From assembly GCF_002119805.1 (NCBI RefSeq), contig NZ_CP021059.1, forward strand, positions 682,001 to 746,000: a stretch of DNA of 64,000 nt. Direction: 5' to 3'. A program made the translations under genes and the position numbers. The stretch is from Macrococcoides canis. GTDB lineage: Bacteria; Bacillota; Bacilli; Staphylococcales; Staphylococcaceae. This document shows, piece after piece, positions 1,895 through 21,011 of the stretch (position 1 is the first letter of the stretch; the number at the start of each line of letters is the position of its first letter). The notes under the pieces were generated by a model that had not been told where the DNA came from, did no database searches, and was given only the letters and a program-made list of their open reading frames with translations.

Positions 1895-4219
1895 ATGCAT
1901 CTGTATGAACATGAAGTAATTGCATATTTAAAATCATTAAAGGGTAGTGCAGTTATGATAGAAGCAATTGAAGCGCATCTAAATCTTGAGAGTGCAGATG
2001 CATTTAAAGATTTAGTAAAGACCCTTGTGCATTTAGAACAGACAGGTAAATTGAGCCGTACAAAGCAGGATAAGTACTTTATTGCCTTCGACAGCAATAA
2101 AGCGCTCGTAAAAGGTACGTTAAGTCAGCACAAAAAAGGCTTTGCATTTGTTAGAGCAGAGGATGAAACGATCGATGACGTGTTTATTCCACCGAATAAG
2201 ATTAATCGTGCTATGGATGGAGACACAGTGCTTGTCAGTGTAACAAAAGCACGTGACGGTCGTAATGAAGGTGAAGTAAAAGCCATTGAAAAGCGTGCGA
2301 TTACTCAAGTTGTCGGTACATACACTGAAGCGAAACATTTCGGCTTTGTATTACCGGATGACTCAAGAATTACACAAGATATCTTTATTCCAAAAGGCAA
2401 GAACCTAGGGGCAGTAGAAGGTCATAAAGTGCTTGTAGAACTTACGCAGTATGCTGATGGTACGAATAATCCTGAAGGTATGGTAAAAGCTATTCTTGGT
2501 CATAAAAATGATCCAGGTGTGGATATCTTATCGATCATCTATCAGCATGGGATTAATATAGAATTTAATCCAGCGACGATTGAAGAAGCAAATAATGTAC
2601 CGGATGAAATTAGTCCTTCAGAAATTACAGGACGTACAGATTTACGTGACGTTCTGACAATTACAATTGATGGTGCAGATGCGAAAGACTTAGATGATGC
2701 AATCAGCGTGGATAAGCTGGATAATGGTAACTACCGCCTGATCGTCTCTATTGCAGATGTCAGTCATTATGTAACGGAAGGATCTAGTCTTGATGCAGAC
2801 GCTTATGAACGTGGTACAAGTGTGTATTTAGTGGACCGTGTAATTCCAATGATTCCGCATCGACTCAGTAACGGTATTTGTTCGCTTAATCCACATGCAG
2901 ATCGTTTAACATTAAGCTGTGAGATGGAAATTACTCCAAATGGTCATACGGTTAATCATAAAATCTATGAAAGTATCATTCATTCCGATGAACGTATGAC
3001 TTATGATGATGTGAATGCAATATTAGAAGATAACGATGCAGCGCTGATCAATAAATATGCGCATATTCATGAACTGCTATTACACGCGAAAGATTTAGCA
3101 GCAATACTTAAACGTATGCGCGAAACACGTGGAGAAATTGATTTCGACCTTAAAGAAGCGAAGATATTAGTTGATAAAGACGGTGTCCCTAGAGAAGTTG
3201 CAATACGAGACCGAGGACTCGGCGAACGTTTAATCGAATTATTTATGCTTGCAGCAAATGAAACTGTTGCAGAACACTTTGCGAAGATGAAAGTACCGTT
3301 TATCTACCGCGTGCATGAAGAACCGAAAGCAGATCGCCTGAAACGCTTCTTTGAGTTTATTACAAACTTCGGTATTTTAGTTAAAGGCGGCACTGAGAAC
3401 ATTCATCCGAAGACGCTGCAGAATATCGGTAAAGAAATTCACGGAAAACCTGAAGAACTTGTAATCTCAACACTTATGCTACGCTCAATGCAGCAGGCAA
3501 AGTATGCAGAAGAGAACTTAGGTCACTTCGGATTATCAGCTGAATATTATACGCACTTTACATCACCAATCCGACGCTATCCAGATTTAATCGTGCACAG
3601 ACTAATCCGTAAATACTTGATTGAAAAGTCGATGGACGATAAAGCACAGGAGTACTGGGCAGAAGAACTGGTCGATATTAGTGAACATACATCTAAACGC
3701 GAACGCCGTGCCATTGATGCGGAACGTGATACAGATGATCTGAAGAAAGCAGAATATATGGTGCAGCATATCGGAGAAGAATTTGACGGTATCATCAGCA
3801 GCGTTGCAAACTTCGGTATGTTCGTCGAACTTGAGAATACGATTGAAGGTATGGTTCATAATTCGAACATGACAGATGATTACTATAACTTTGATGAACG
3901 TCATATGGCGATGATCGGTGAACGTCACGGAAAAGTGTATAGAATCGGTCAGAAAGTACGCGTAAAAGTAGTGAACGTCAATGTAGATGAACGCATGATT
4001 GACTTTGCGATTGTTGGTATGGATATGAAGAAGATTGAAGATAAGATTCGCGAAGTGAAAATTAAAGCGAAGAAGAATACGAAATCTACTAACGAAAAAC
4101 CCCGTAAAAAAGGACGCGGAAAAGCACGTGGCGCAGAAATGAGTAAGAATAATAAAAATAAGAAACCGTTCTATAAAGCAAAAGCGGTGAAAAATTCAGG
4201 ACGTAGAAAGAAGAAGTAG
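1895..4219 (+). CDS. rnr: Ribonuclease R
   Basis: Processive 3'-5' exoribonuclease that degrades structured RNA and works with tmRNA/SmpB in removing non-stop mRNA. The 774-residue protein has an N-terminal winged-helix and two cold-shock OB folds (about 1-240), the RNB catalytic domain (about 245-575) with the metal-binding Asp cluster D259, D262, D265, D267 and D268, an S1 domain (about 625-708), and a Lys/Arg-rich tail after about 710, all typical of RNase R rather than RNase II. AAAGGAGGA lies just before the ATG. smpB follows after 10 bp, so the trans-translation genes are physically coupled. Confidence 0.97.
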
Positions 4220-4229
4220 AGGTGACGTT

Positions 4230-4691
4230 ATGCCTAAAGGAACTGGGAAAGTATTAGCACAAAATAGAAAAGCAAGTCACGATTATACGATAGAAGAAAC
4301 GATTGAAGCGGGAATCGAACTAAAAGGAACTGAAATTAAGTCCATTCGACGCGGCAGCGCGAACTTACGTGATTCCTATGCACGTGTATATAAAGGTGAA
4401 ATGTATGTCTATAATATGCACGTTGCACCTTACGAAGAAGGCAATCGATTTAACCATGACCCCCTCAGAACACGTAAATTACTATTGAAAAGAAAACAGA
4501 TCGATAAACTCTTCGGTCAGACACGTGAACAAGGGTATACACTTGTACCATTGAAGCTGTATATTAAAAACGGCTACTGCAAAATGCTAGTGGGCATCGC
4601 TAAAGGTAAGAAAGATTACGACAAGCGACATGCACTAAAAGCAAAAGAAGCGAAACGCGAAATGGACCGCGCATTGAAAGAAAGATATTAA
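4230..4691 (+). CDS. smpB: SsrA-binding protein SmpB
   Basis: RNA-binding partner that delivers tmRNA to stalled ribosomes. The 153 residues show the conserved SmpB start (residues 5-22, ending in the HDYTIEE motif), the [15 protein letters not shown] and [11 protein letters not shown] blocks of the beta-barrel, and the basic C-terminal tail ([18 protein letters not shown]) that enters the decoding site. Start ATG 4230 has AGAGGTGA at good spacing and lies 10 bp after rnr. The tmRNA gene it serves is 0.5 kb downstream, separated by a terminator and a repeat array. Confidence 0.97.
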
Positions 4692-4698
4692 AATAAGT

Positions 4699-4729
4699 GC
4701 GACCTGCATAAGTAGCAGGTCGTATTTTG
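4699..4729 (+). terminator. Terminator of the rnr-smpB unit
   Basis: Nine-pair stem GCGACCTGC/GCAGGTCGT with loop ATAAGTA and a following ATTTTG, eight bases after the smpB stop. The T tract is short, so strength is uncertain. Confidence 0.65.
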
Positions 4730-4770
4730 ATAGTTTGGTTTAAGCTGAAGTTGAGATTGGTGGTGACGTT

Positions 4771-5109
4771 GGCCCATAAATAAAAAAACATGGGCCAAGA
4801 TGAGCAAAAAGAGCATGAGATGAAGAGTGAGATGGCTCATAAATAAAAAACATGAGCCAAGATAAGCACTAAGAGCATGAGATGAAGTGTAAGTTGGCTC
4901 ATTAATAAAAAACATGAGCCAAGATGAACGCTAACAGCATGAAATGAAGAGTGAGATGGCTCATAAATAAAAAACATGGGCCAAGATGAGCACTAAGAGC
5001 ATGAGATGAAGAGTAAGTTGGCCCATAAATAAAAAACATGAGCCAAGATGAACGCTAAGAGCATGAGATGAAGAGTGAGATGGCTCATAAATAAAAAACA
5101 TGGGCCAAC
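4771..5109. repeat. Tandem 62-bp hairpin repeats between smpB and ssrA
   Basis: This fills most of the 496-bp gap between smpB and tmRNA. Units begin at 4771, 4834, 4896, 4958, 5020 and 5082 (period 62, first 63), giving five full copies and a sixth ending after its hairpin. Each unit starts with an inverted repeat, GGCTCAT or GGCCCAT, then an A-rich loop, then ATGAGCC or ATGGGCC, followed by a purine-rich spacer containing GAGCATGAGATGAAGAG. Units 1 to 3 keep perfect arm pairing despite different arm bases; units 4 and 6 have a G-T pair and unit 5 a mismatch. No credible reading frame runs through it. Confidence 0.92.
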
Positions 5110-5128
5110 TTCATTACAGTCATTTTTC

Positions 5129-5157
5129 TTGATACTCACTTATAATTTTGTTATATT
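5129..5157 (+). promoter_or_regulatory. Promoter of ssrA
   Basis: TTGATA (5129-5134), 17 bp, TATATT (5152-5157). The mature tmRNA begins about 30 bases after the -10, leaving a short leader for RNase P removal. Confidence 0.7.
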
Positions 5158-5187
5158 AGAAAATGCTAGTTATAAAATACTAACCAC

Positions 5188-5543
5188 GGGGGCGTTACGG
5201 ATTCGACAGGGGTCACTTGGGCTGGTATAGCGTGTCGGAGGGTTGTCTCCGTCATCAACACAACAGTTTATAATAACTGGCAAAACAAACAATTTCGCAG
5301 TAGCTGCCTAATCGCACTCTGCACCTCTCTCAAGCATCGCCTATGTGCCTGATGTAGAGGTTCAACTTAAGTAGGATACGCTGTACACCTCCGCTTGGGG
5401 TCTGTACAGAAGAGATTAATCGAGCTAGTTATTAACCAGGATGTCCGTTTTCAGGTTAATAGCGAATCTTAATAACAGGACTACACACGTAGAAGTATCA
5501 GCTGCAGGATCTTTGGACGCGGGTTCGACTCCCGCCGTCTCCA
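5188..5543 (+). ncRNA. ssrA: Transfer-messenger RNA (tmRNA)
   Basis: Rescues ribosomes stalled on broken mRNA by adding a degradation tag. The 5' end GGGGGCG pairs with the 3' CGTCTCC to form the tRNA-like acceptor; GGATTCGACAGGGG near the 5' end and the GGGTTCGACTCCC T-arm near the 3' end are the standard tmRNA blocks. The resume frame at 5279-5311 reads GKTNNFAVAA then TAA. The 3' CCA is not encoded: bases after the discriminator A (5543) are TAC. The tag is one Asn shorter than the S. aureus tag as I remember it (GKSNNNFAVAA) but keeps the protease-recognised AVAA end. Confidence 0.96.
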
Positions 5544-5551
5544 TACTTGAG

Positions 5552-5580
5552 CCTATAACACTTGATGTTATAGGTTTTTT
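5552..5580 (+). terminator. Terminator of ssrA
   Basis: Perfect stem CCTATAACA/TGTTATAGG with loop CTTGA, then six T, nine bases after the tmRNA end. Confidence 0.9.
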
Positions 5581-5747
5581 AATTTTTATCAGTGTCATTT
5601 TTGGACACAAAATCAATTAATTTTCACATTCAAACACAAATGATTATAAATTATATTTACTTTTCAACATATCGCTAAGACATATTGATTTACATCAAAT
5701 TTCCCTCGATAATGTATTTGTAATTATACATAAAAAGGAGAATTGTG

Positions 5748-6314
5748 ATGAAAGTTAAATTGTTAAGTATTTCGTTAATTACTTTGTCTTTATTATTTGC
5801 AGCTTGTAGTGAGGATACTGAAGATAAGAATACTAAAGAAGAGTCGAGTGCAAAAGCAACAGAAACTGAAAGTAATTCTTCAAAGATTTCGACGGAAGAT
5901 ACTGCTGAAGAATCTGTTGACACAGAAACGAATGTATCAGATGCATTAAAGCTCGGAGATACGAAGAAAATTGATGATGTCACGTTTACTGTTAATGATG
6001 TGAAGGTGACAGATGAACGAAATGAATTTAATGATGTTAAAGCTGAAAAGGTGATTACTATTTTCACAACTGTTAAGTCGGACGCTAAAGAAGATTATGT
6101 TGCGGGACAGGAAGCGGATGTGTATGTTAACGGTAAAAAATCAGAAGCATATCCATTAGGAACAGACAAGACTGAAACAATTTCTACGGGACGAACTGCA
6201 GATGTAGCACAATCCTTCGCTGTTCCTAAAGATGCTAAAGAAATAGAGATAGAGATAAAGCCATTGTTTTCAATAGGAAATGATAAAGCTCTTTACAAAG
6301 TTACAATAGAATAA
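5748..6314 (+). CDS. Lipoprotein with DUF4352-like (Telokin-like) domain
   Basis: Predicted membrane-anchored lipoprotein of unknown role. The signal peptide ends in the lipobox LFAAC with Cys20; residues 21-60 are a low-complexity Ser/Thr/Glu linker; the remainder (about 65-188) looks like a DUF4352 immunoglobulin-like fold, starting at KLGDTKKIDDVTFTVNDVKV. ATG 5748 is preferred over the overlapping GTG 5745 because AAGGAG lies at better spacing. It has its own terminator (6330-6363) and stands alone between the tmRNA and a small membrane peptide gene. DUF4352 assignment is by pattern only. Confidence 0.8.
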   Translation: MKVKLLSISLITLSLLFAACSEDTEDKNTKEESSAKATETESNSSKISTEDTAEESVDTETNVSDALKLGDTKKIDDVTFTVNDVKVTDERNEFNDVKAEKVITIFTTVKSDAKEDYVAGQEADVYVNGKKSEAYPLGTDKTETISTGRTADVAQSFAVPKDAKEIEIEIKPLFSIGNDKALYKVTIE

Positions 6315-6329
6315 ATAGTGAAGTAATGT

Positions 6330-6363
6330 AGCCTATAACAATACGTTATGGGCTATTTATTTT
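6330..6363 (+). terminator. Terminator of the DUF4352 lipoprotein gene
   Basis: Stem AGCCTATAAC/GTTATGGGCT (one G-T pair) with loop AATAC, followed by ATTTATTTT. Confidence 0.75.
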
Positions 6364-6401
6364 GTGCTATATTGGATATAGATGAGAATAAGGAGGATAT
6401 T

Positions 6402-6563
6402 ATGAATAAATTAATGAATAGTTTAGCAGTCATATTGTTTATTGCATTTTTACTGTCATTTGTTATTCCGTCAATTAATGATTACAAGTACTATTTCTTA
6501 GGCTTGGCAGTATTGTTATCGATATTAACATTATCGCAAGAAGTGAAACGATCAGATAAGTAA
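6402..6563 (+). CDS. Small two-helix membrane protein
   Basis: A 53-residue protein not assigned to a known family. AGGAGG at 6391-6396 sits at ideal spacing before ATG 6402, which strongly favours this start over longer in-frame options. Two hydrophobic segments (about residues 6-24 and 30-46) are separated by a short polar turn (PSINDYKYY), and the C-terminus is charged (QEVKRSDK). No terminator follows; the second 62-bp repeat array begins 13 bp after the stop. Possible roles include a membrane-associated regulator or simply an orphan; nothing in the context decides. Confidence 0.6.
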   Translation: MNKLMNSLAVILFIAFLLSFVIPSINDYKYYFLGLAVLLSILTLSQEVKRSDK

Positions 6564-6575
6564 GTGAATAGATTC

Positions 6576-6866
6576 GAAGTGGCGCGTGTTTCGAATTTAC
6601 GAGCCACCTTGAGCATCCATCCACTAAATATCAAATCGAAGTGGCGCGTGTTTCAAATTTACGGGCCACCTTGAGCATCCAGTCACTAAATATCATATCA
6701 AAGTGGCGCGTGTTTCGAATTTACGAGCCACTTTGAGCATCCCGCCACTAAATATTATATCGAAGTGGCGCGTGTTTAAAATTTACGAGCCACCTTGAGA
6801 CATCCCGCCACTAAATATTATATCGAAGTGGCGCGTGTTTAAAATTTACGAGCCACCTTGAGCCAT
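6576..6866. repeat. Second tandem 62-bp hairpin repeat array
   Basis: Occupies nearly all of the 363 bp between the small membrane protein and the acetyltransferase. Units begin at 6576, 6638, 6700, 6762 and 6825 (period 62, once 63), four complete and one partial. Each begins GAAGTGGCGCGTGTTT, runs through an AT-rich loop, and returns with ACGAGCCACCTTGAGC, so GTGGC pairs with GCCAC. The period equals that of the array at 4771-5109, and both place TGGC...GAGCCA followed shortly by TGAGC, although the sequences otherwise differ. No coding capacity. Confidence 0.9.
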
Positions 6867-6926
6867 CATATCCTCTTTTTGGTTTTTAGCCATCTTGAAA
6901 TGGGAATTGTATACCGAGGTGATAAA

Positions 6927-7541
6927 GTGGAGGTCGTGAAAGCGAGTAAAACAGTTGATGTTGCTGGGGAGCTTAATTTTCTTGCGCTTGGAGATATGTG
7001 CTATACGATGCTTGGAACACACGATGACAATAAAATACGTTCATATATGCAGTCATTGTTCGAGATGCCAGGCAATCGATTTAGTTATAACGATTCGTAT
7101 GTTTTAATGGATGACCAAAAAGTGATGGGGATGATGACATGCCTGCCAGTAAAGGTGTTAAATCGTGCAACTTTGAAGACGATAATAGACATTATTAAAT
7201 TACGTAAATTAAGCGCACTTAAAATCATTGTTAAACATCCGAAATCACTGCTCGCATTAATGAGGATGCGTGAGGGAAAAGAAAATGAGTATCATATCAG
7301 CATGATCGCAACGCTTCCTGAATTTCAAGGAAAAGGTGTTGCAAAAAGGTTGATTGCCCATGCGGAAGAAATGTCTATCGCAGAAGGGTTTAATAAGCTA
7401 TCGCTTACGGTCGTGAAACAAAATGAAGGCGCATTCCATCTATATAAGAAACTTGACTTTAATGTAGTAGGGACAATTGATGATAATGCATTGCATTTAT
7501 ACCGTATGCGTAAATTATTAACCGTTAATCGCGCGGATTAA
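6927..7541 (+). CDS. GNAT family N-acetyltransferase
   Basis: Predicted acetyl-CoA-dependent acyltransferase; substrate unknown. The C-terminal part carries GNAT motif A, ISMIATLPEFQGKGVAKRL, with the acetyl-CoA pyrophosphate-binding QGKGVA, followed by a motif-B-like segment (EGAFHLYKKLDFNVVGTI). I chose GTG 6927 (204 residues) because GAGGTG lies five bases upstream; an ATG at 6900 and one at 6858 are in frame but lack a ribosome site, and 6858 lies in the repeat array. The gene ends inside a palindrome shared with the convergent gene at 7525-7779. Confidence 0.82.
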   Translation: MEVVKASKTVDVAGELNFLALGDMCYTMLGTHDDNKIRSYMQSLFEMPGNRFSYNDSYVLMDDQKVMGMMTCLPVKVLNRATLKTIIDIIKLRKLSALKIIVKHPKSLLALMRMREGKENEYHISMIATLPEFQGKGVAKRLIAHAEEMSIAEGFNKLSLTVVKQNEGAFHLYKKLDFNVVGTIDDNALHLYRMRKLLTVNRAD

Positions 7542-7547
7542 CGGTTA
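7519..7547. terminator. Palindromic terminator inside two convergent coding ends
   Basis: Perfect 12-bp arms TAACCGTTAATC/GATTAACGGTTA around loop GCGCG. Both flanking genes have their stop codons within it. A TTTCTTTC stretch follows on the plus strand; the minus strand tail is weaker. Confidence 0.7.
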
Positions 7548-7779
7548 TTTCTTTCATTTCATGACTAATGCCGATAGCAATCTGGTTACTGTTATTCGGA
7601 TTGCTGAAAGTAACAGCTTCTTCATCATTAAATTCAATGACATCAAGGATGCTGTGACTTTTGTATATGGGTTTCGTTACTGCAATGTAGGATTTATTTT
7701 CTACTAATCGAATCGGAATTTTAGTATTGTTCGTTAATGACCAGCCTGGTAAATATTTAAGATTAAATGTATTTTTCAT
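7525..7779 (-). CDS. Hypothetical protein, 84 aa
   Basis: No family recognised. The ATG at 7779 is preceded on the minus strand by AGGTGA at correct spacing, which supports translation. The protein is soluble, mixed beta-rich in appearance, with an N/S/E-rich middle and no membrane segment or signal. It ends ITVNPRD, and its final 17 bases overlap the convergent acetyltransferase, both ends encoded by opposite strands of the same palindrome. The antisense overlap is small, so this is not a simple shadow frame. Confidence 0.6.
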   Translation of the reverse strand: MKNTFNLKYLPGWSLTNNTKIPIRLVENKSYIAVTKPIYKSHSILDVIEFNDEEAVTFSNPNNSNQIAIGISHEMKEITVNPRD

Positions 7780-7956
7780 AGTATCACCTAAATGTTAAAT
7801 TTGTGTTCCGTCATTTAAATTGAGGTACAAATTTAAATTGAGGTTATTTTCATATAATAAAGAACAAAGATGTTGTAAAATGGAGAAAACAGCTCGTTTC
7901 AAACACATATATACATTTTACCACAGTTTCGGGCTTTCATTTGAGGAGGATTTAAA

Positions 7957-8679
7957 TTGAGTGATAAAGGTTTAGCGATTCCAAAGATTATCGTTACATT
8001 ATCAGATGTGCAAAATGAAGATAATGTATATGTTAAAGAGGCTGAGGAAAACAGTGTTTTCTTTGATATTATTGAGTACCGTGCAGATTTAAAGGTAATG
8101 CCGGCAGCAGAGTATAAAGATGAGCTTCTGTATATTAAAAGTCATTTTCCAAATAAGAAGATTCTGTTCACATATCGCATGTTCGATGATAGAGACAGAG
8201 CAACGATTGAAGCAGCGGATTATTATGAGATTATTAAGTTTGTCATCACAAACGATCTCTGTGATATTATCGATATCGATTTAATGATCTATGAACAGTA
8301 CATGACAGATTTATTACAGCTCGCACGTCAGCATCAGATTGAAGTGCTGATTAGTCATCATGAATTTCAGTACACACCTCGTATAAAAGATATGCTTGCG
8401 ATGTATAAGAAGATGATCACATTAGATGCAGATTACTGTAAACTTGCAGTAATGCCGCATGATGGTAAAGATGTGCTGAATCTAATGGATGCAGTATATG
8501 AAACAAAGCAAGCATATGATACGAATGTTATTGGCATAGCGATGGGGGATATCGGTAAGATCACGCGACTCGCATGCGGCGTATTTGGCTCGTCGATGAC
8601 ATTTGGATATGTAGGTGAACCTGTAGCACCAGGACAGATTCATGTACGTGATCTGCATCATCAGCTTGCACTGTATTAA
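7957..8679 (+). CDS. aroD: 3-dehydroquinate dehydratase, type I
   Basis: Third step of the shikimate pathway: dehydrates 3-dehydroquinate to 3-dehydroshikimate through a Schiff base. The 240 residues fit the type I class I aldolase fold. Visible motifs are EYRAD (E40, R42, D44) that binds substrate, the catalytic His in SHHEF (134-135) and the Schiff-base Lys162 in CKLAVMP. Translation starts at TTG 7957 with GAGGAGG seven bases upstream. It stands alone, followed by the Fur-box promoter of the nitroreductase, as in staphylococci where aroD precedes this nitroreductase-gcvH neighbourhood. Confidence 0.94.
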   Translation: MSDKGLAIPKIIVTLSDVQNEDNVYVKEAEENSVFFDIIEYRADLKVMPAAEYKDELLYIKSHFPNKKILFTYRMFDDRDRATIEAADYYEIIKFVITNDLCDIIDIDLMIYEQYMTDLLQLARQHQIEVLISHHEFQYTPRIKDMLAMYKKMITLDADYCKLAVMPHDGKDVLNLMDAVYETKQAYDTNVIGIAMGDIGKITRLACGVFGSSMTFGYVGEPVAPGQIHVRDLHHQLALY

Positions 8680-20750: not shown

Positions 20751-21011
20751 CTGTACGTGCGTGAGCGCACCATTTTGCCCAAACAGCAGACTGTACGTGC
20801 GTGAGCGCACCATTTTGCCCAAACAGCAGGCTATACGTGCGCCAGAGCACCATTTTGCCCAAACAGCTGACTGTAAGTGCGCCAGCGCACCATTTTGCCC
20901 AAATAGCTGACTGTACGTGCGTGAGCGTACCATTCTGCCCAAACAACTGACTGTACGTGCGCCAGCACACCATTTTACCCAAACAGCTAGCTGTACGTGC
21001 GTGAGCGTACC
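20751..21011. repeat. Tandem 40-bp hairpin repeat array
   Basis: Fills the 323-bp gap between the CorA gene and the convergent fetB. Six complete units start at 20751, 20791, 20831, 20871, 20911 and 20951, exactly 40 bp apart, with a half unit at 20991. Each starts CTGTACGTGCG (small variations) and contains CATTTTGCCCAAACAG. A short hairpin lies at each start: GTGCG-TGAG-CGCAC in some units and GTGCG-CCAG-CGCAC in others, so the loop changes while the stem is mostly kept. Long frames on both strands here come only from the periodicity. Confidence 0.93.

Follow-up and report, generated by a model that had tools for sequence, protein, structure and literature searches.

A hairpin array between smpB and ssrA

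In the window, the 64,000-nucleotide stretch of Macrococcoides canis DNA analysed here, smpB and ssrA are separated by an array of six hairpins (4770-5107). The smpB gene (4230..4691, + strand) is a 153-aa ORF with 95% identity to SmpB of M. caseolyticum DSM 20597 (locus L036). Directly 3' of it lies a probable terminator (4699..4729, + strand), a hairpin with a T-rich tail read from the sequence as GCGACCTGC..GCAGGTCGTATTTTG, whose stem was reported by the terminator scan for the − strand only. On the other side, a candidate ssrA promoter (5129..5157, + strand; TTGATA-17-TATATT, a consensus match only) precedes ssrA, the tmRNA gene (5188..5543, + strand; ARAGORN and Rfam RF00023), so that the array is flanked by the probable smpB terminator and the candidate ssrA promoter.

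The six hairpins, all on the + strand, follow one another at spacings of 63, 62, 62, 62 and 62 bp, which bears out the regular row that a first-pass annotation had described. Their arms are 8 bp long (TGGCYCAT/ATGRGCCA) and enclose an A-rich centre of 11 nt, or of 12 nt in unit 1, where the loop has one additional A. Hairpin 1 (4770..4797) has the arms TGGCCCAT/ATGGGCCA, and hairpins 2 (4833..4859, loop 11 nt) and 3 (4895..4921) have the arms TGGCTCAT/ATGAGCCA. The paired arm change noticed in that annotation, CCC/GGG in unit 1 against CTC/GAG in units 2 and 3, thus holds for the three perfectly paired units. It does not extend to the other three, each of which has one uncompensated mismatch: T-G in hairpins 4 (4957..4983) and 6 (5081..5107), both with the arms TGGCTCAT/ATGGGCCA, and C-A in hairpin 5 (5019..5045, arms TGGCCCAT/ATGAGCCA).

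Between the hairpins (4798..5080, + strand) are five 35-nt spacers in two variants, and the alternation of these variants, also pointed out before, is real: among exactly 62-bp units, those two apart are 94.4% identical and adjacent ones 87.6%. TRF likewise scored 92% matches for a 124-bp period and 87% for a 62-bp period. Since units at lag 2 are more alike than neighbours, the last expansion of this array may have been by a two-unit step, as had been proposed. The proposal does not carry over as clearly to any other of the 19 arrays tabulated, however; in only three others does lag 2 exceed lag 1, by a margin of at most about 1%.

A second array of the same family, with five hairpins at spacings of 62, 62, 62 and 63 bp, lies at 6580..6855 with its A-rich centre on the − strand and one mismatched pair in every hairpin. 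At this site an array is present only in the source genome, with a weak single match nearby in genome G006. The window also contains a different tandem array (20751-21011, 40 bp x 6.5 copies) shortly 3' of a probable terminator; it has one diverged relative in the source genome (G000:C1:521550-521770) and no match in the 8 other genomes of the genus. A further 41-bp array of 12.6 copies, with another unit again, lies at L011:980-1495 (G000:C1:1712979-1713494).

A genus-wide family at the 3' ends of genes

By blastn against 40 genomes, the ssrA-site array gave 10 matches in its own genome (G000, 2.36 Mb) and matched 5 of the 8 other genomes of the genus and 0 of the 31 outside it. A covariance model (37 nt, built from 53 hairpins) matched 7 of 9 genus genomes, some hairpins being counted on both strands. 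At a stricter cut-off it matched 8 of 108 genomes of the bacterial family, the sole one outside the genus (G014) by a single weak match. Two genus genomes missed by the model, G003 and G007, have the same architecture with different arms, and we refer to such hairpins as the sister type. A direct scan of the fetched stretches, with hairpin length limited to 26-28 nt and a grouping distance of up to 135 bp, so that 62 bp was not imposed, found 37 arrays with 163 hairpins, including three sister-type arrays (4 hairpins). The main type accounts for 34 arrays and 159 hairpins, distributed as 10/59 in G000, 7/28 in G004, 8/33 in G005, 6/35 in G006, 2/3 in G008 and 1/1 in G001. These main-type counts come from a second scan, the initial one having overlooked the TGGCACGT type, and they miss some of the weak single model matches in G006 and G004, two of which lie outside the fetched stretches.

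Arrays were found in eight of the nine genus genomes, and the ninth (G002) has single hairpins of the sister type at five loci. A wider pattern gave 4-23 matches per genome in all nine; outside the genus it gave one match each in 9 of 99 family genomes, where the reversed control matched 16 of 99 (and 1 of 9 in the genus). Within the genomes searched, the repeats are confined to the genus, and relatives elsewhere with other arms would escape the pattern. Plasmid and phage collections gave no blastn match (records near the source genome may be excluded from them, and distant relatives could escape), on which ground a plasmid or phage origin was rejected. Among open-licence PMC texts we found no paper on Macrococcus repeats of this kind, and the main text of PMC12306157 (RepRanger) mentions neither Macrococcus nor Staphylococcus.

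The arrays lie directly 3' of genes, past a stop codon or terminator, at about nine sites. The first-pass annotation had suggested looking for location bias and for copy-number variation across Macrococcus genomes, and both are present. Bias to gene 3' ends is strong: when the main arrays are oriented by their A-rich centre, 32 of 34 have a left-hand ORF directed at the array (mechanical ORF calls), the exceptions being the 6580-6855 array and a groEL array of G000 interrupted by an insertion element. Within main-family arrays all units have a single orientation, and counted per site the agreement is 8 of 9, which is modest evidence by itself. The right-hand ORF faces the array in 14 of the 34; one of these ORFs is spurious and lies inside ssrA, and another encodes an IS transposase. 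Inspection by eye shows a probable terminator separating gene from array at six of the nine sites; at the others the array begins immediately behind the stop codon or within it.

Clustering by flanking ORFs placed eight of the nine sites in at least two genomes. Genomes G000, G004, G005 and G006 have the ssrA site, a site where a NERD-domain gene faces an aldehyde dehydrogenase gene, and sites at an NMN-transporter gene, an amidohydrolase gene (followed by what we take, by reading, to be ribD) and a small gene. Three genomes have the site between a LacI-family gene and a facing histone-deacetylase-family gene, presumably ccpA and acuC. The chaperonin (groEL) site is found in G000, G005 and G008, with a single hairpin 3' of the apparent groEL end, judged by eye, in G004; the DUF456 gene site is found in G000 and G005. 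The insertion element in the groEL array of G000 (L012, about 5400-6870) has two ORFs, of which the 269-aa one carries HTH_21 and rve domains.

Copy number varies between species. At ssrA there are six hairpins in G000, four in G004 and in M. caseolyticum DSM 20597 (L036), two in G006 and one in G005, and the spacers there differ between species with little variation inside the array, which points to local turnover. Of 13 named Macrococcus or Macrococcoides smpB loci only that of DSM 20597 has an ssrA array; the covariance model matched none of the 12 others (L037-L048), and in six of these no ssrA start was found 3' of smpB on the + strand. In these other species ssrA follows a short promoter-like region lacking hairpins of this model. 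It could be supposed that the array regulates ssrA, for example as a curved or protein-binding activating region upstream, given that 21 bp separate hairpin 6 from the candidate −35 box and that hairpins are present at ssrA in all four of G000, G004, G005 and G006. We consider this highly improbable: the family also occurs between facing genes, as the 14 arrays with a facing right-hand ORF attest, G005 has a single hairpin at ssrA, and other species do without them. A tmRNA-specific role was rejected as a general explanation, the family being present at about nine sites. The placement beside ssrA, one of these, is incidental, and the ssrA-site array is probably not a tmRNA regulator.

Some sites may retain traces of how units come and go. 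Compared with a two-hairpin array in L011, the corresponding array of G005 (L122) cleanly lacks a hairpin between CAAG repeats. In G004 and G006 (L135, L129) the first 20 nt of the spacer recur in the right flank, which is not so at all sites; spacers may thus derive in part from unique flanking DNA. At the small-gene site (G000, 1957 kb) all six genomes in which the gene was found have a hairpin, and an empty site was sought among them and not found. In three of these (L132, L134 and L123, from G001, G008 and G005) the stop codon of the small gene falls in the hairpin centre, and their proteins are 98-100% identical to one another and 51-59% identical to those of G000, G004 and G006. Judging by these sequences, the small gene and its hairpin may have moved together.

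Fixed geometry and paired arms

Each repeat consists of a 27-bp palindrome, with 8-bp arms around an A/T-rich centre of 11 nt, and a spacer of 35 nt in the main family and 34 nt in the sister type. Among 125 main-family gaps, 115 are of 62 bp and the rest of 61 (4), 63 (3), 46, 69 and 124 bp. A length of exactly 27 nt is shared by 156 of the 159 main hairpins and by all 58 sister hairpins, which is partly by construction given the 26-28 nt limit; covariance-model matches, for which indels are allowed, nearly all span 37 nt. The spacers are far less constant in sequence. Over 468 pairs, the cores of 35-nt main spacers taken from separate sites share 27.4% identity, compared with 26.0% (sd 0.4) in shuffled sequences, and spacers of the same site in different species average 42% (55 pairs). 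Main spacers across sites therefore keep a trace of relatedness yet equal length, and since their identity is about that of shuffles, the period outlasts the sequence. Between neighbouring units of main arrays (83 comparisons) the difference per site is 2.9% in the arms, 3.8% in the centre and 10.9% in the spacer middle, the last figure being lowered by the omission of unequal-length pairs and of spacers more than 40% different. The palindrome, A-rich centre included, evolves about 3-4 times slower than the spacer.

At least three arm types occur within the genus, TGGCTCAT, TGGCCGAT and TGTCCGAT. The pattern TGGCCGAT-N11-ATCGGCCA, with at most 2 mismatches, matched all nine genus genomes and its reversed control gave one match each in two. 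Among the matches listed, which do not include those of G006, those in G004 are main-family members and those in G000 and G005 are an unrelated repeated sequence. The sequence TGGCCGATCACCCTCTCAGGTCGGCTA, on one strand or the other, is present in five identical copies in G005 and five in G000 (G000:C1 positions 432959, 1845624, 2030492, 2275950 and 2318777), and presumably belongs to a multicopy gene. The sister set itself comprises 58 hairpins at 26 loci in G001, G002, G003, G007 and G008, three of the loci being also in the 37-array scan, with arrays of at least two hairpins in all of these genomes except G002. Its 32 gaps are of 61 bp in 26 cases, 62 bp in 4 (the TGTCCGAT type) and 122 bp in 2, where a degenerate unit is skipped. 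Counted by eye, a predicted gene ends at the array at 25 of the 26 loci. The exception, a single TGGCCGAT hairpin in G002 (L166:4023-4049), stands between divergent ORFs, 16 bp from one start, and could be an operator.

For 95 pairs of sister spacers from separate sites, taking the better of the two strands, identity is 50%, and shuffles give 33%. By sequence comparison the whole 61-bp unit is clearly of common origin, and descent alone could account for the constant period. Helical phasing of the units is weak evidence, whole turns requiring about 10.2 bp per turn at 61 bp and about 10.3 at 62 bp; as proof it is weakened by the 61-bp lineage.

The first-pass annotation had taken the paired arm changes as a sign of selection on pairing in RNA or on a palindromic protein site. 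Covariation is real: in a set of 49 distinct hairpins, standard pairs fill 93.2% of pair cells, and 0 of 500 shuffles reach the covariation score, the structure having been derived from the tested hairpins themselves. Two of the five measures do not exceed shuffles (double-change pairs, 3 vs 2.9; pair types, 8 vs 7.8). The arms covary in the sister stems too. However, paired changes in a DNA palindrome are not, alone, proof of RNA function. Mismatches in the main family are G-T in 34 cases and A-C in 29 (22 and 21 among distinct hairpins), and because selected pairing should give an excess of G-U over A-C, selection on RNA pairing is disfavoured. The corresponding sister counts, 4 and 10, are uninformative, those hairpins being unoriented. 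A symmetry kept at the DNA level, by a protein site or by template switching, fits the arm covariation better than RNA-pairing selection does.

The same results bear on a wider proposal, that the hairpins act within read-through transcripts, stabilising or terminating them or sequestering a protein or small RNA. The location at gene 3' ends with biased orientation and the covarying arms would suit such a role, as would the strong folding of the ssrA-site array as RNA, with z of −8.25 and −8.70 on the two strands against dinucleotide shuffles (100 each). A STAR-like S. aureus transcript with regular palindromes, Teg12, is reported in PMC2873960, and the authors of PMC3733652 take it as a sign of RNA function that REPs have G-T pairs and lie at gene ends. 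Against this stand the near-equal G-U and A-C counts and the probable terminator that precedes the array at six of nine sites. When the whole + strand is folded to minimum energy, moreover, only units 1 and 3 keep their own hairpin, the other four pairing across units. No U-run was seen after the hairpins and a terminator scan of window positions 4600-7000 reported none of them, so that they were rejected as intrinsic terminators. An Rfam search of positions 4000-8000 (E up to 1) matched only tmRNA models, including a sub-threshold permuted-tmRNA match at 5071-5311 (28.1 bits vs a cut-off of 47) that overlaps hairpin 6, and a known RNA family was rejected accordingly. We regard an RNA element as unlikely.

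Relation to known repeats and a putative docking array

By anatomy these are tandem palindromic intergenic repeats of the general REP/BIME/STAR kind, and a new, genus-wide variant of it. They resemble STAR elements, as those are described in PMC3532100, in being intergenic, dispersed and tandem, with locus-specific spacers and variable copy number; in the Macrococcus arrays, too, spacers are alike inside a locus and different between loci. They differ from them in that the S. aureus gapR spacers vary between 40 and 44 bp, against 35 or 34 here, and in that STAR elements were found to share no neighbourhood between two species (both after PMC3532100), whereas eight of nine sites here are common to at least two genomes. 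Membership was rejected, as the STAR motif TNTGTTGNGGCCC, allowing up to 2 mismatches, is missing from the ssrA-site array and occurs 5 times in the whole window against 6.2 expected.

The likeness to REPs is that of extragenic palindromes of 20-40 bp, often clustered, 3' of genes or between facing genes (PMC3733652); here the palindrome is extragenic and of 27 bp, with 59 copies in 10 arrays in G000. That number is below the more than 100 per genome given as usual in PMC2817692. Neither GTAG nor CGTC recurs as a regular tag at the stem foot. Of the 159 main hairpins, no more than 7 have GTAG and no more than 11 have CGTC within 8 nt of it, and among the 58 sister hairpins CGTC is present in at most 5 and GTAG in none. 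A further difference from REPs is that the units of a main-family array all point the same way. Well-studied REPs are tied to a RAYT transposase. The Y1 transposase domain (PF01797) was found in none of eight of the nine genus genomes, G000 included, and in one copy in G006; this and the tag counts led us to reject a RAYT-driven REP.

A palindromic repeat of about 27 nt, a spacer of about 35 nt and a constant period also recall CRISPR, which was rejected because spacers repeat within the arrays, being near-identical where CRISPR spacers are unique. The CIRCE operator of HrcA is, like the present palindrome, an inverted repeat of 27 bp; its centre is not conserved, and a dimeric repressor binds it. 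Its arms are different, as is its 9-9-9 geometry. G000 does have a CIRCE-like site with a single mismatch, but as a separate element close to groEL (L012:9050-9076).

What these arrays do may be approached from their constant parts. The most likely reading of the sequence comparisons, to which we give slightly less than even weight, is that of a DNA-level element at gene ends, a putative docking array for a dimeric DNA-binding protein. The palindrome would be preserved as DNA, serving to dock a protein that may be a nucleoid protein, or gyrase as at the BIMEs of E. coli. Lined up where a transcription unit ends, the sites of an array might buffer supercoiling or separate neighbouring genes. 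Such docking is plausible but unproven. In E. coli, gyrase cleavage sites are over-represented at BIME-2 elements (PMC6379681). A transcription-coupled role is unsettled even there, because, according to the same paper, the BIME-2 gyrase signal rose rather than fell when transcription was blocked. The arrays themselves turn over locally by whole units, in concerted evolution, as copy number and spacers differ between species at the same site while the units of an array stay alike.

Turnover of that kind could also belong to non-functional, self-amplifying tandem repeats, in which slippage or unequal recombination copies units, template switching keeps their symmetry and gene ends are merely tolerant. 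This is a serious contender that comes close behind the docking array. Site-specific spacers, the 6/4/2/1 copy numbers at a single site and the hairpin cleanly missing from between CAAG repeats in G005, the kind of trace expected of slippage, are all in keeping with it. Template switching between inverted repeats is reported to homogenise their arms (PMC8604942), and STAR elements, which have no known function, show similar behaviour (PMC3532100). Local slippage with template switching could thus explain symmetry and homogeneity without function, and placement at gene ends could reflect tolerance, there being no promoter to damage, instead of function. Neutral amplification fits less well with arms and centre that evolve about 3-4 times slower than the spacer, with a period that survives near-complete spacer turnover and with an orientation biased in 32 of 34 arrays and at 8 of 9 sites.

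A more specific and, as we see it, rather doubtful proposal is that the family is a Gram-positive counterpart of the gyrase- or nucleoid-protein-binding BIMEs that has spread without RAYT. Putative dimeric sites about six helical turns apart would stand at the ends of smpB, a groEL gene and others, with 8-bp arms, an 11-bp centre and a 61/62-bp pitch conserved and arms of at least three types. With no Y1 transposase in most hosts, a fixed geometry, sites common to several species and a low copy number, the spread and the function of such repeats are testable in a tractable genus.
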